Source: Arenimonas terrae (GTDB lineage Bacteria > Pseudomonadota > Gammaproteobacteria > Xanthomonadales > Xanthomonadaceae). From it: a stretch of DNA of 64,000 nucleotides. Below the pieces are notes generated by a model. That model was not told where the DNA came from and ran no database searches. It saw only the letters and a list, made by a program, of their open reading frames with translations. The translations under genes were made by a program, and so were the position numbers. The first letter of the stretch is position 1; every line of letters starts with the position of its first letter. Below are positions 56,509 through 62,263 of this stretch, piece after piece. Location: positions 1,612,001 through 1,676,000 of the forward strand of contig NZ_SMDR01000001.1 in NCBI RefSeq assembly GCF_006265115.1, read 5' to 3'.

Positions 56509-56898
56509 ATGGACATGGCCCGCAAACCCGCCCCGCCCAAGCCCACCCCGGCCGAACTCGACCTGCTGCGCGTGCTGTGGCCGCTGGGTGCCGCCACCGC
56601 CAAGCAGGTGCACGAAGTCGCGCAGCGCGACCGCCCGGAGCTGGCCTACGCCACCGTGCTGCGGCTGCTGCAGATCATGCACGGCAAGGGCCTGCTGGTC
56701 CGCGACGAAAGCGAACGCTCGCACGTCTATGCGCCGGCGCACGCACAGGAATCGCTGCGCACCAGCCTGCTCAAGGACCTGATCCACAAGGCCTACTCGG
56801 GCTCCGGCAAGGAGCTCGTGATGGCGGCCCTGCGCGGCCACGTCAGCCAGGAAGAAAAGGACGAAATCCGCAGGCTGCTGCAGGAGGACGGAGAATGA
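56509..56898 (+). CDS. BlaI/MecI/CopY-family transcriptional repressor (129 aa)
   Basis: A winged-helix repressor cleaved or inactivated by a partner BlaR1-type protease. It starts MDMARKPAPPKPTPAELDLL and has the winged-helix sequence QVHEVAQRDRPELAYATVLR and LLQIMHGKGLLVRDESERSH. An internal ATG at 56515 is an alternative start. Its stop overlaps the next gene's ATG (ATGA). Operator directly upstream. Confidence 0.92.
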   Translation: MDMARKPAPPKPTPAELDLLRVLWPLGAATAKQVHEVAQRDRPELAYATVLRLLQIMHGKGLLVRDESERSHVYAPAHAQESLRTSLLKDLIHKAYSGSGKELVMAALRGHVSQEEKDEIRRLLQEDGE

Positions 56899-58652
56899 TC
56901 ACCGCATCGGGACTCACCGCCGCGCTCGGCTGGGCGCTGCTGCACTTCCTCTGGCAGGGCCTGCTGGTCGGCCTGGCCGCCGGCCTGGTGCTGGCGCTGC
57001 TGGGCAATGCGCGGCCGCAGCTGCGATATGCGGTGGCCTGCGCGGCGCTGGCCCTGTGCCTGCTGCTGCCGGCGGCGACGACGCTGCGCGGGGCGACGAT
57101 GGCCGATGCACCCTCGCGCGTGGCCACGCCGGCCGACGGCGAGGTTTCCTTCGCCGCCGGCGTGGTCGAGGGCCTGCGCCAGCCCCTGATCGACACCACG
57201 CGCGAATGGCGCGGACAGCTGCAGCCCTGGCTGCCGGGCATCGTCGCGCTGTGGTCGCTGGGCACCGGGCTGTTCTCGCTGCGCATGGCCCTGGGCCTGG
57301 CCTGGGTGGCGCGCGCCGCCCGCCCCGGACACGGCCGCACGCACGCCTACTGGCAGGCGCAGCTCGATGCGCTGTCCGAACGCATGGCCCTGCCGCGGCG
57401 CGTGCTGCTGCGCGTGGTCGACGACCTCGACGGCCCGGTGGCCGCGCGCATCTGGCGGCCGGTGGTGATCGTGCCCGCGGCGCTGATCGCCCGCCTGCCT
57501 GCCGACCTGCTCGAAGCCCTGCTCGCCCACGAACTGGCGCACGTGCGCCGCCACGATTACCTGGTGAACCTGGTGCAGAGCGCGGTCGAAGCCCTGCTGT
57601 TCTACCACCCGGTGGTGTGGTGGCTGTCGCGCCGCATCCGCATCGAACGCGAGCAGATCGCCGACGACATCGCCGCCCAGGCCCTGGGCGAGCCGCGCCG
57701 GCTGGCGATCGCGCTCAACGAACTGGCGCAGTTCCGCGCCCCCGACCCGCACCTGGCCCCGGCCGCCCAAGGAGGTTTGCTCATGTCCCGCATCCAACGC
57801 CTCGTCCGCCCGCGCAGGCAGTCCCTTAGCTGGAAACTCGCCCTGCCCATCCTGGGCCTCAGCGCCGCCTGCATGACCGCCTTCGCGCAGGGCCATGTCG
57901 CCGGCATCGTCGCCAAGGACGAGGAGCCGGCGCGCATCTCGGTGCGCGCGGGCCAGGACACCCACTACGCCGTGGTCGGCGACAAGGGCGACGATTCGAT
58001 CAAGTTCACCGGCCACTACGACCAGCTCGAGGACATCACCCGGCTGCGCCGCGAGCTCGGCGACAACTTCATCTGGTTCCGCCGCGACGGCCGCGACTAC
58101 GTGATCCGCGACCCGGCGCTGGTGCGCCAGGCGCGCCAGGCCTGGCAGCCGACCGAACCTGTCGGCAACCGGATGGGCGCCCTGGGCGACCAGATGGAAG
58201 TCCACGGCGAGAAGATGGAAGCGATCGGCGCGCGCATGGAGCGCCAGACCGCGGGCAGCGAGCCGATCAGCACCGAGATGGAAAAGCTGGGCGAACAGAT
58301 GGGCGCGCTCGGCGAGCGCATGGAGCCGCTGACCCGGGCCATGCTCCGCACCGACGACGACGCGGAGCGCGACCGCCTGCACGCGGAGATCGACAGCGTG
58401 AGCGCGCAGATGGAGACGCTGGGCCGGCGCATGGAAACGCTGGGCGCGCAGCTTGAGGCCGTGCACGCGCCGATGGACGCCCTGGGCAAGGAAATGGAGC
58501 TCGCCGGCAAGCCGATGGAAGACCTGGGCGCGCAGATGGAAGCGCTGGGCAAGCAGATGGAAGTGCTGAGCGACGCCGCCAACCGCGAGACGCTGAGCCT
58601 GATCGACCAGGCGCTTCGCGACGGCAAGGCCGAGCGCATCGAGCGGCTCTGA
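56895..58652 (+). CDS. BlaR1-like M56 metallopeptidase with methionine-rich heptad C-terminus (585 aa)
   Basis: A membrane-bound M56 protease that would cleave the BlaI-type repressor on sensing a signal. Four or more transmembrane helices occur (LTAALGWALLHFLWQGLLVG, LPGIVALWSLGTGLFSL, LALPILGLSAACMTAFAQ). The zinc motif is HELAH at about 212-216. There is no penicillin-binding domain. Instead the extracytoplasmic C-terminus (about 420-580) is a series of heptads of the MEALGxQ type (GALGDQMEVHGEKMEAIGAR, TLGRRMETLGAQLEAVHAPM), probably a coiled coil. Signal unknown. A strong terminator follows. Confidence 0.88.
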   Translation: MITASGLTAALGWALLHFLWQGLLVGLAAGLVLALLGNARPQLRYAVACAALALCLLLPAATTLRGATMADAPSRVATPADGEVSFAAGVVEGLRQPLIDTTREWRGQLQPWLPGIVALWSLGTGLFSLRMALGLAWVARAARPGHGRTHAYWQAQLDALSERMALPRRVLLRVVDDLDGPVAARIWRPVVIVPAALIARLPADLLEALLAHELAHVRRHDYLVNLVQSAVEALLFYHPVVWWLSRRIRIEREQIADDIAAQALGEPRRLAIALNELAQFRAPDPHLAPAAQGGLLMSRIQRLVRPRRQSLSWKLALPILGLSAACMTAFAQGHVAGIVAKDEEPARISVRAGQDTHYAVVGDKGDDSIKFTGHYDQLEDITRLRRELGDNFIWFRRDGRDYVIRDPALVRQARQAWQPTEPVGNRMGALGDQMEVHGEKMEAIGARMERQTAGSEPISTEMEKLGEQMGALGERMEPLTRAMLRTDDDAERDRLHAEIDSVSAQMETLGRRMETLGAQLEAVHAPMDALGKEMELAGKPMEDLGAQMEALGKQMEVLSDAANRETLSLIDQALRDGKAERIERL

Positions 58653-59052: not shown

Positions 59053-59364
59053 GGGCGTTCGCACAGGAAACGAATCGGCGATTCCCTTCCCGCCACGAAG
59101 CACCCGGACCGGCGGTCCGAGGTAACGGCGAGATCCGCAAGACGGCGCTGGCAGCGCTGTGCCTGGGTGCTTCGGCACGGGCGGAGACGGAAGGAAAACG
59201 CGAACAGATCGGATCGAAGGATCCGGACGATTTGCCGCCGGGCGACCGGCGGCAAAAACGAAGCGGGAACATCGGACGTCGAAGCGGATCGGGCTCAAAC
59301 CCCCGACCGGAACGCGCGGCTCTGCCGTGGCGTTTGCCTCGACCTCGCGCGCCCGCTTCGTCAA

Positions 59365-59431
59365 GGCGATTGCTCACTGGAGAGAGCAGCGGGAAACCGC
59401 ATGAGGCCGGTTCGATTCCGACTCGCCACCA
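59365..59431 (+). ncRNA. tRNA-like RNA 1, with D and T arms and encoded CCA but no anticodon arm
   Basis: A 67-nt element reading as a cloverleaf. A 5-bp acceptor stem GGCGA/TCGCC ends in ACCA. The D-arm is GCTC with loop ACTGGAGA and GAGC. The T-arm is GCCGG, TTCGATT, CCGAC with one C-A mismatch. In place of the anticodon arm is a short hairpin GCGG-GAAA-CCGC with a GNRA tetraloop. It lacks an anticodon, so it cannot decode. It directly abuts a second tRNA-like element upstream of slipin and rtcB. Confidence 0.6.
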
Positions 59432-59500
59432 CTGGATAGCTCAGTCGGGTAGAGCACAGCGCGTTAAACGCTGGTGTCGCGGGTTCGATTCCCGCTCCAC
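59432..59500 (+). ncRNA. tRNA-like RNA 2, with anticodon-type loop CGTTAAA
   Basis: A 69-nt element with D-arm (GCTC, AGTCGGGTA, GAGC), anticodon arm CAGCG-CGTTAAA-CGCTG, variable GTGTC and T-arm GCGGG-TTCGATT-CCCGC. The D and T arms match normal tRNAs. The acceptor stem pairs only CTGGA/TCCAC (4 of 5) with no CCA. Position 33 is G where U is nearly universal, so it is unlikely to be a functional decoder. The GUUAA in the loop recalls tRNA-Asn. It follows tRNA-like element 1 with no spacer. A decayed tRNA is the alternative. Confidence 0.55.
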
Positions 59501-59869
59501 ATCTGCTTGTAAAGGCAGCTGGTGATGCAACACCGGGCGCAAGCCCAAGGGACACGCCCCGCGCGTGCCGTCGCAACGGCCAGCCCATCGGCCGGCGCAA
59601 CGTCACGCACGCCGCCCGCACCGGGCGGCCGCCTTCGCCAGGCGCCGGGACGCGCGGAACGCCACGCACGCGGGCCAGGACGGCCAGCGCGCGTGGCGCA
59701 AAGCGCCGACCGCCGCCACGCGCACGCGGCCGACTCCGTGCGGGTCCGGCGCAGGGGCGTGCCCACTTTTTCCGGAGCGACCGCTCCGAACACGACGCGC
59801 GCGGACGACCCGCCGCCGCGGCGCGAACCGATAACCGGGTCGAACCATCAACGAATCAAGGAGGACGCG

Positions 59870-60988
59870 ATGTTGATGATCCGTAAGGTCGTGGTCGGCG
59901 ATGCCGAGCGCGCCCTCGTATACAAGAACCGCCGGTTCCAGCGAGTGCTGGGCCCGGGCGTGTACCGCCTCTGGGGTTTCGGCCTGCAGGTGACCGTGCA
60001 CGACCTGGCCACCGCCGAATACACCGGCAAGGACATCGAGGCGCTGGTGCAGGCCCTGGGCGCGACGCTGGCGGAAACCTTCCAGCTGGTCGACCTGGGT
60101 ATGCAGGAGATCGGCCTGGTGCACAAGCAGGGCAAGCTGGTGGATGTGCTGGCGCCGGGCAGCCGCAAGCTGTACTGGAAGGGCCTGACGCAGATCGACG
60201 TGCAGCGCATCGCGCTGTCCGACGGCCTCGAGGTCGACGCCGGCACCGCCCACCGCCTGCGCCAGCTCAACGTGCTCGACAAGCTGGCGGTGGCCGTGAC
60301 GGTGCCGTCGGAGTCCGCGGGTCTGCTGTTCGTCGACGGCAAGTTCGTGCGCGTTCTGGCGCCCGGTGCGGCCGCGTTCTGGAACGTCCGCAAGAACGTC
60401 GCGGTAGATGTGGTGGACCTGCGCGTGCAGGCGATGGAGGTCTCGGGCCAGGAACTGCTGACCCGCGACAAGGTGTCGCTGCGCGTGAACCTGGCGGCCA
60501 GCCTGCGCGTGACCGACCCGGTCGCCGCACGCAGCAAGGTCGCCAAGTACGCCGACCAGGTCTACCGCGAACTGCAGTACGGCCTGCGCAAGGCGGTCTC
60601 CGCCAAGTCGCTGGACGAACTGCTGGGCGACAAGGCCTCGCTGGACGCGGACATCTTCGCGTACGTGCGCGGCCAGGTGACCGGTTTCGGCGTCGAGGTG
60701 ATCGGCGTCGGCATCAAGGACGTGATCCTGCCCGGTGAGATGAAGGACATCCTCAACGGCGTGGTGCAGGCGGAGAAGGCGGCCCAGGCCAACGTCATCC
60801 GCCGTCGCGAGGAGGCGAACGCCACGCGTTCCCTGCTCAACACCGCGCGCCTGGTGGAGGAGAGCCCCACGCTCATGCGCCTCAAGGAACTCGAGGCGCT
60901 GGAGAAGGTCACCGAGAAGATCGACAAGCTCACCGTGTTCGGCGGCCTGGACGGCGTGCTGAAGCAGCTGGTGACGTTGAAGCAGTAA
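59870..60988 (+). CDS. Slipin, SPFH/Band 7 family protein (372 aa)
   Basis: A stomatin-like protein. The N-terminus has MLMIRKVVVGDAERALVYKN, then SPFH motifs (VLAPGSRKLYWKGL, VRVNLAASLRVTDP variants, VEVIGVGIKDVILP) and the C-terminal coiled coil VQAEKAAQANVIRRREEANA. It has no transmembrane helix at the N-terminus, unlike many stomatins. AAGGAGG lies 5 bases upstream of the ATG; the longer in-frame stretch from 59522 runs through hairpin DNA and is rejected. It is followed after 54 bases by rtcB, and a Band 7-RtcB pairing recurs in bacterial RNA-repair clusters. Confidence 0.9.
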   Translation: MLMIRKVVVGDAERALVYKNRRFQRVLGPGVYRLWGFGLQVTVHDLATAEYTGKDIEALVQALGATLAETFQLVDLGMQEIGLVHKQGKLVDVLAPGSRKLYWKGLTQIDVQRIALSDGLEVDAGTAHRLRQLNVLDKLAVAVTVPSESAGLLFVDGKFVRVLAPGAAAFWNVRKNVAVDVVDLRVQAMEVSGQELLTRDKVSLRVNLAASLRVTDPVAARSKVAKYADQVYRELQYGLRKAVSAKSLDELLGDKASLDADIFAYVRGQVTGFGVEVIGVGIKDVILPGEMKDILNGVVQAEKAAQANVIRRREEANATRSLLNTARLVEESPTLMRLKELEALEKVTEKIDKLTVFGGLDGVLKQLVTLKQ

Positions 60989-61042: not shown

Positions 61043-62263
61043 ATGAACGGACACAACTACGAACTGCTGCACGCCGAAGGCAGCCCGACCCCGATCAAGG
61101 GCTGGGTGAAGGGCGTGCCGCTGGACGAGGGCGCGCACCGCCAGCTGCAGAACATCGCCGGCATTCCCTTCGTGGGGCCGTGGGTGGCGGTGATGCCCGA
61201 CGTGCACCTGGGCAAGGGCGCGACCGTGGGCTCGGTGATCCCGACCCGTGGCGCGATCATCCCGGCGGCGGTCGGCGTCGACATCGGCTGCGGCATGGCC
61301 GCGGTGCGGACCACGCTGCGCGCCGACCAGCTGCCCGACGACCTGGCGCCGATCCGCGCCTCGCTCGAGCGCGCCATCCCGGTCGGCAACGGCCGCGGCG
61401 GCGAGCACTGGAAGATCCCGGACAGCATCGGCACGCGGCTGGTGGACTCGGGGCTGGAGGCGCGGCTGCAGGCGATCCGCGCCAGGCACCCGAAGATCCG
61501 TCCCGACAAGCTGGACAAGCAGCTGGGCACGCTCGGCGGCGGCAACCACTTCATCGAACTCTGCCTCGACGAGGCCGACCAGGTGTGGGTGATGCTGCAT
61601 TCGGGTTCGCGCGGCACCGGCAACCTGATCGGCACCTACTTCATCGAGCTGGCGCGCCGCCAGCTGGAGAAGCGCGTGCTCGGTTTCCACCTGCCCGACC
61701 AGGACCTGGCCTTCTTCATGGAGGGCGAGCCGCTGTTTGAGGACTACGTGGACGCGGTGTCGTGGGCGCAGGACTACGCGCGCCACAACCGCGAGGCGAT
61801 GATGTCGCGGGTGCTGCACGACCTGCGGCACAAGCTGCCGAAGTTCCAGCTGGAGAAGATGGCGGTCAATTGCCACCACAACTATGTCAACCGCGAGACG
61901 CACTTCGGCGAGGAGCTGCTGGTGACCCGCAAGGGCGCTGTCAGTGCCCGCGCCGGAGAGCTGGGCATCATCCCGGGAAGCATGGGCACGCGCAGTTACA
62001 TCGTGCGTGGCAAGGGCGATGCCGACAGTTTCCACAGCTGCAGCCACGGTGCCGGCCGCGTGATGAGCCGGACCCAGGCCAAGCAGCAGATCACGCTCAA
62101 GCAGCACCGGGAGGCGACCGCCCACGTCGAATGCCGCAAGGACGCCGGCGTGGTGGACGAATCCCCGGCCGCCTACAAGTCCATCGACGCGGTCATGGCC
62201 GCGCAGTCGGACCTGGTGGAGGTCGTGCACACGCTGCGCCAGGTGGTCTGCATCAAGGGCTGA
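61043..62263 (+). CDS. rtcB: RtcB RNA-splicing ligase (406 aa)
   Basis: It joins RNA 2',3'-cyclic phosphate and 5'-OH ends using GTP and Mn2+, repairing or splicing broken RNAs. Active-site features are VGVDIGCGM with the metal-binding Cys at about 83, LGGGNHFIEL and HSGSRGTGN for metal and nucleotide, and HSCSHGAGRVMSR with the guanylylated His at about 335. Length and motifs match full-length bacterial RtcB. Neither archease nor RtcA is encoded nearby, and no RtcR-type regulator. It lies downstream of slipin and two tRNA-like elements, likely repair substrates or products. Confidence 0.96.
   Translation: MNGHNYELLHAEGSPTPIKGWVKGVPLDEGAHRQLQNIAGIPFVGPWVAVMPDVHLGKGATVGSVIPTRGAIIPAAVGVDIGCGMAAVRTTLRADQLPDDLAPIRASLERAIPVGNGRGGEHWKIPDSIGTRLVDSGLEARLQAIRARHPKIRPDKLDKQLGTLGGGNHFIELCLDEADQVWVMLHSGSRGTGNLIGTYFIELARRQLEKRVLGFHLPDQDLAFFMEGEPLFEDYVDAVSWAQDYARHNREAMMSRVLHDLRHKLPKFQLEKMAVNCHHNYVNRETHFGEELLVTRKGAVSARAGELGIIPGSMGTRSYIVRGKGDADSFHSCSHGAGRVMSRTQAKQQITLKQHREATAHVECRKDAGVVDESPAAYKSIDAVMAAQSDLVEVVHTLRQVVCIKG

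Follow-up and report, generated by a model that had tools for sequence, protein, structure and literature searches.

A tRNA-like RNA without an anticodon arm is a module of a large structured leader upstream of slipin and rtcB in Arenimonas terrae

What use might a bacterium have for an RNA that keeps the body and CCA end of a tRNA and lacks the arm that reads codons? The question is raised by a 64,000-nucleotide stretch of the Arenimonas terrae genome (the window), where such an RNA (RNA1) lies on the forward strand at positions 59364 to 59431. The reading we favor, to which we assign a probability of roughly 60%, is that RNA1 mimics a tRNA minus its anticodon and is one module of a large, structured slipin leader, which usually heads slipin-rtcB RNA-repair operons, and for which we propose a role as a tRNA decoy. 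The initial annotation had described RNA1 as an odd tRNA-like RNA in its own right; its fold is real, but it is not isolated, being part of the slipin/rtcB leader RNA, and it adjoins a second tRNA-like RNA (59432 to 59503) inside this larger conserved RNA, both of which the initial annotation missed.

The acceptor stem of RNA1 in the window consists of 5 bp between GGCGA (59365 to 59369) and TCGCC (59423 to 59427); TT at 59370 to 59371 separates its 5' strand from the D-arm (GCTC/GAGC, 59372 to 59375 and 59384 to 59387), the T-arm GCCGG-TTCGATT-CCGAC (59406 to 59422) forms 4 of its 5 pairs, and the 3' end reads A-CCA (59428 to 59431). The D-arm, T-arm, acceptor stem, and N-CCA of a canonical tRNA are thus all found, but an anticodon arm with a 7-nt loop is not; its position is taken by the GNRA hairpin GCGG-GAAA-CCGC (59389 to 59400). 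The earlier claim that such an RNA is unable to decode is supported by this arm, and we consider it virtually certain that RNA1 does not decode. Folded alone, RNA1 has a minimum free energy of -24.6 kcal/mol (z = -1.45), and since 15 of 200 shuffles were equally stable, the single-sequence fold lies within chance. ARAGORN called no tRNA genes over the window, and the best Rfam match of RNA1 was a sub-threshold hit to tRNA-Sec (22.7 bits, E = 0.11); RNA1 falls below the Rfam tRNA gathering score, and several of its homologues do pass Rfam tRNA or ARAGORN.

A single sequence is insufficient to establish the fold, which we instead consider established because comparison of homologues shows covariation. 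We aligned 45 of 58 candidate homologues, the window's own copy among them (the 13 left out include near-duplicates, copies lacking a D-arm, and ambiguous ones), and obtained a covariation score of 0.517, compared to 0.144 ± 0.011 in shuffled alignments (none of 500 reached 0.517) and at most 0.156 when the alignment was slid. Across the 45 sequences, 91.5% of cells are paired, and two-sided compensatory changes occur at each of the 7 pairs in the acceptor and each of the 5 in the replacement hairpin. The arms are therefore conserved as structure, which was the point on which the initial annotation had made its reading depend, and the proposed fold, with a D-arm, a T-arm, ACCA, and a GNRA hairpin where the anticodon arm would be, is confirmed by sequence and homologue covariation together. 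One detail does not generalize: conservation extends to the short stem and small loop, not to the GNRA sequence that caps the hairpin in the window. Among 52 parsed copies, the loop of this arm measures 3 nt in 6, 4 nt in 30, 5 nt in 6, 6 nt in 3, 7 nt in 5, and 8 nt in 2, with a GNRA sequence in 11 and UUCG in 4, so that a short-loop arm is the rule for RNA1 and GAAA is one form among several. Model R1, built from the alignment, matches the RNA1 of the window at 58.9 bits, a match that is not independent because this copy is among the model's 45 sequences.

The leader RNA that contains RNA1 is ∼540 nt long, lies upstream of the slipin gene and rtcB, and runs on the forward strand in the order 5' domain P3, RNA1, RNA2, a hairpin resembling a free anticodon arm, and the long-range stem P5. 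P2, the P3 domain, RNA1, RNA2, and P5 are all supported by a consensus fold of 27 Xanthomonadales leaders that was checked against shuffled and slid alignments. P2, an 11-bp hairpin in the 5' part (59231 to 59256), has two-sided changes at 10 pairs and a covariation score of 0.574, compared to 0.206 shuffled and 0.170 slid. The P3 domain (59259 to 59360), defined by the consensus fold, covariation, and a second model (R2), comprises two outer stems (59259 to 59268 with 59351 to 59360, and 59275 to 59282 with 59339 to 59345) and the inner hairpins P3a (59286 to 59308) and P3b (59310 to 59335). Taken alone, P3b covaries weakly in the Xanthomonadales set, which says little because the hairpin is nearly invariant there; it is supported by a U-A/C-G change across 50 sequences that include Pseudomonas and Betaproteobacteria. 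Farther 3' are a GNRA hairpin, GGGC-GCAA-GCCC (59535 to 59546), and P5 (59550 to 59764), in which 59550 to 59560 pair with 59754 to 59764 and enclose further helices; P5 shows compensatory changes and is followed by a U-run (59767 to 59771) some 100 nt ahead of the slipin start. This support for P5 comes from Xanthomonadales, and outside that order single-sequence helices are near chance level. Against Rfam 15, the leader matches no family except tRNA at gathering score, and the P3 domain has no match at all. In Arenimonas composti (L047, 4582 to 4700), P3 is intact and RNA1 and RNA2 are apparently deleted or fused. An inverted repeat, GAAGCACCC/GGGTGCTTC (59098 to 59178), lies farther upstream of the leader in the window and is partly kept in relatives, and a BlaR1-like M56 peptidase gene occupies 56577 to 58649.

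RNA2 (59432 to 59503, forward strand) is recognized by Rfam as tRNA at 45.6 bits, with a 4-bp acceptor and an anticodon arm, CAGCG-CGTTAAA-CGCTG, that lacks U33. Over 64 sequences its covariation score is 0.526, compared to 0.130 shuffled; the anticodon stem is well paired (99.7% of cells), and the three outermost acceptor pairs do not form in 50, 36, and 31 of the sequences. Of 87 copies, 68 have a 7-nt loop, 43 of them with U33, and 30 different anticodons occur; in some lineages RNA2 resembles an ordinary tRNA, with the anticodon CAT in 10 of the 68 seven-nucleotide loops. An N-CCA encoded exactly 1 base past the last acceptor pair is found in 6 of 82 RNA2 copies, compared to 26 of 52 for RNA1. 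The RNA1 count is consistent with the suggestion in the initial annotation that such an RNA may be recognized by CCA-adding, RNase P, or T-loop enzymes. Immediately 3' of RNA2 stands a hairpin resembling an anticodon arm without a tRNA body (CTGC-TTGTAAAG-GCAG, 59503 to 59518, forward strand), whose loop has 8 nt in the window and mostly 7 nt in relatives. If the loop must have 7 nt and the stem no fewer than 4 Watson-Crick pairs, a definition that leaves out the window's version, this hairpin occurs at 76 of 87 loci, compared to 25.0 in shuffles, and it carries U33 at 61 loci where 4.1 are expected. At 25 loci the loop is identical to one of the 35 anticodon loops of the window genome, which served as the native reference (against an expectation of 0.005, and none in a control region), a count in which many loci are closely related, 8 of 48 distinct loops being native. 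The commonest native match is the tRNA-Asp loop CTGTCAC, and among loci L047 to L126 the 7-nt loops after RNA2 often equal native Asp, Glu, Tyr, Lys, and Asn loops.

The first gene downstream of the leader encodes a 372-aa slipin (SPFH/Band 7 family; 59870 to 60988, forward strand; Pfam Band_7, E = 4.2e-30, or 1.6e-29 for a longer frame at 59522 to 60985) and is followed by the RNA ligase gene rtcB (61043 to 62263, forward strand; Pfam RtcB, E = 5.1e-126). We assembled 80 slipin loci (L047 to L126) from Xanthomonadales, Pseudomonas, relatives of Competibacter, Betaproteobacteria, and others, and a hand-made scan located tRNA-like units upstream of most of them. All 77 loci with at least 700 nt of upstream sequence have an RNA1/RNA2-type or P3 match; R1 matches the leader in 75 of these and R2 in 72. 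R2 matched P3 upstream of slipin at 72 of the 80 loci, with no other match across 867 kb; 48 of these matches belong to its training set and 24 were held out, with 5 held-out loci giving no match. In 276 whole genomes of the class, 18 of which encode slipin, P3 was recovered 8 times at E ≤ 1.6e-5, always upstream of slipin and in none of the 258 slipin-less genomes (Fisher P = 5.8e-11). At E ≤ 0.01 it was found in 16 of the 276 genomes: the 8 strong matches and a weak one in genome G251 lie upstream of slipin, and the remaining 7, all weak (E = 4.9e-4 to 8.8e-3), fall in slipin-less genomes. Half of the 18 slipin genomes have no P3 match under these stricter whole-genome filters. We are highly confident in both the identity of RNA1 and its linkage to slipin. 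In several loci tRNA arrays lie just upstream of the slipin leader, with 27 ARAGORN calls in L068, 15 in L124, 14 in L109, 9 in L098, and 5 in L099.

RtcB is absent just downstream at 22 of 68 slipin loci with at least 3 kb of downstream sequence, and the leader is tied to slipin more than to RtcB because 21 of these 22 keep an R1 or R2 match; the remaining locus, L106, has only 260 nt upstream. A scan of 10 neighbors from 9 of the RtcB-less loci revealed no shared or obvious repair enzyme. A control set of 22 RtcB loci from 21 of 184 genomes contained R1 matches in 3, namely, L160 and L161, where slipin lies beside RtcB, and L158; the window's own RtcB locus (L157) begins downstream of RNA1 and RNA2, making an R1 match impossible there. 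A plasmid search with the P. aeruginosa leader gave no matches, and slipin was present in only 1 viral contig in a search for phage links.

The window genome has no PF06956 match for the regulator RtcR, nor was RtcA found in it, and RtcR is encoded at 7 of the 80 slipin loci. Among the scanned leaders, only 6 (L111, L113, L117, L118, L119, and L120) have a sigma-54-like motif, TGGCACG-N4-YYGCW, immediately 5' of P3, and five of these (L111, L113, L117, L118, and L119) have RtcR nearby; given this motif ahead of P3 and the nearby RtcR, the leader would there begin the operon transcript. The slipin has no clear transmembrane segment, and in its structural model two extra beta modules (residues 4 to 45 and 71 to 115) precede the SPFH domain. 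The full model best matches stomatin (Z of 17 to 18), with MVP at Z of 10 to 12 over the SPFH part, and the N-terminal part alone reaches 6.8 with erlin SPFH1 modules and 4.4 to 4.7 with MVP repeats; the matches to MVP are too weak to claim a vault-like particle. Deletion of the rtc-locus SPFH gene (PaFlo8) in P. aeruginosa PA14 had no detectable effect in tests of biofilm, swimming, and pyocyanin (PMC13086221), which weighs against the reading we favor.

The evidence suggests that the leader's tRNA mimicry serves stress or repair and not protein synthesis. Its likeliest function, which we put forward tentatively and at slightly under even odds, is a decoy or scaffold role with slipin, by analogy to Ro and Y RNAs and judging by which tRNA features each mimic has retained or lost. 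Under stress, the leader would be transcribed together with the operon, RNA1 and RNA2 would be matured or bound as tRNAs, and soluble slipin may act as a scaffold on which the two serve as tRNA decoys in an RNA-damage response. RNA1 would present a tRNA body with its elbow and CCA end but no site for cleavage; the bait would be the anticodon loops of RNA2 and of the free anticodon arm, and RtcB would meanwhile reseal cut RNAs. RNA1 may never be released, because P3 and RNA2 directly adjoin it.

The strongest rival is a sensor acting in cis, in which enzymes that cut or mature tRNA act on the tRNA-like leader mRNA and thereby switch slipin-rtcB expression, with RtcB possibly resetting the switch. 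The modules all share a single co-oriented leader ahead of the slipin start, the anticodon-arm hairpins bear native tRNA loops, P5 precedes a U-run in Xanthomonadales, and since the window genome lacks RtcR another control is needed; but P5 and the U-run could be a plain 3' end, and P5 has its support within Xanthomonadales. We judge this sensor unlikely, though a serious contender. A bolder combination, which we regard as speculative, is a new large RNA class made of a dismantled tRNA (a body without an anticodon, a whole tRNA-like RNA with a drifting anticodon, and an arm without a body) that doubles as a cis damage sensor: cleavage of the mimic loops by anticodon nucleases, within the leader of slipin-rtcB, would increase expression of the repair genes, and RtcB would reseal the leader once the damage was mended. 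Tandem tRNA genes are often processed by tRNA-maturation cleavage, and the tRNA-like units could serve merely as RNase P and RNase E/Z processing signals through which the slipin-rtcB mRNA is released, as the N-CCA encoded in half of RNA1 copies might suggest; this is improbable in our view, as it leaves unexplained both the conserved P3, P5, and free anticodon arm and the consistent loss of the RNA1 anticodon arm. The longer tRNA arrays just upstream in several loci might suggest pseudogenes left by a decaying array, but the two-sided changes in acceptor, middle, and T helices and the retention in all 77 testable loci indicate selection for structure and make decay highly improbable.

The leader is present in Xanthomonas, Stenotrophomonas, Lysobacter, and Pseudomonas aeruginosa, and gene finders call such units odd tRNA genes or miss them, as ARAGORN did here. 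A conserved leader that imitates tRNA offers a direct handle on the purpose of RtcB in bacteria and on its RNA targets, through the questions of which enzyme binds the mimic and whether cutting it switches on repair.

Compared to canonical tRNA (RF00005), RNA1 shares the D-arm, T-arm, acceptor, and CCA and differs in its missing anticodon arm and its score under the tRNA gathering threshold, and RNA2 often lacks U33, the outer acceptor pairs, and CCA. Our literature search, with most subscription papers outside reach, returned no description of the slipin leader. In their 2016 abstract, Burroughs and Aravind reportedly name a "novel tRNA-like molecule" as a partner of SPFH/Band-7 repair modules, and what their molecule and ours have in common is a tRNA-like RNA beside SPFH/Band 7 in an RtcB operon. 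That report is not known to describe an anticodon-less body, a free anticodon arm, P3, or P5; these elements look new.

For the tRNA-like domain of YrlA in the Salmonella rtc operon, competitive inhibition of an anticodon nuclease has been suggested (PMC7790460). Like the YrlA Y RNA (RF02553) of rsr-yrlBA-rtcBA operons as portrayed there (PMC7790460), the leader is operon encoded, has a tRNA-like domain, and lies beside rtcB. Unlike in RNA1, the T-arm precedes the D-arm in the YrlA model, and the window scores only 21.1 bits against it (gathering score, 69), over the RNA1 T-arm and RNA2 D-arm; score and arm order rule out a circularly permuted tRNA or a Y RNA as the identity of RNA1. Other sub-threshold matches are in L117 (33.6 bits) and L050 (30.1 bits). 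These weak matches span the RNA1 T-arm and RNA2 D-arm (59406 to 59455 in the window, 4623 to 4674 in L117, and 4548 to 4611 in L050), which might hint that YrlA's permuted tRNA domain originated where one tRNA-like unit adjoins the next in tandem. Unlike YrlA systems, the window genome lacks a TROVE protein (Rsr; no PF05731 match). In L158, three YrlA-like RNAs (971 to 1465; 66.0 bits against the gathering score of 69) lie directly upstream of rtcB in a genome with no TROVE or slipin match.

A further parallel is the trn array of Anabaena, where an operon of 26 tRNAs is repressed by TrcR jointly with rtcB and a slipin gene, and without TrcR rtcB rises 77-fold and the slipin gene alr0740 rises 42-fold (PMC10272220). 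The trn tRNAs form a 26-gene plasmid operon rather than a structured leader, whereas RNA1 is anticodon-less; as in the locus described here, tRNAs, rtcB, and slipin come together, and in Anabaena they make up one translation-stress response (PMC10272220).
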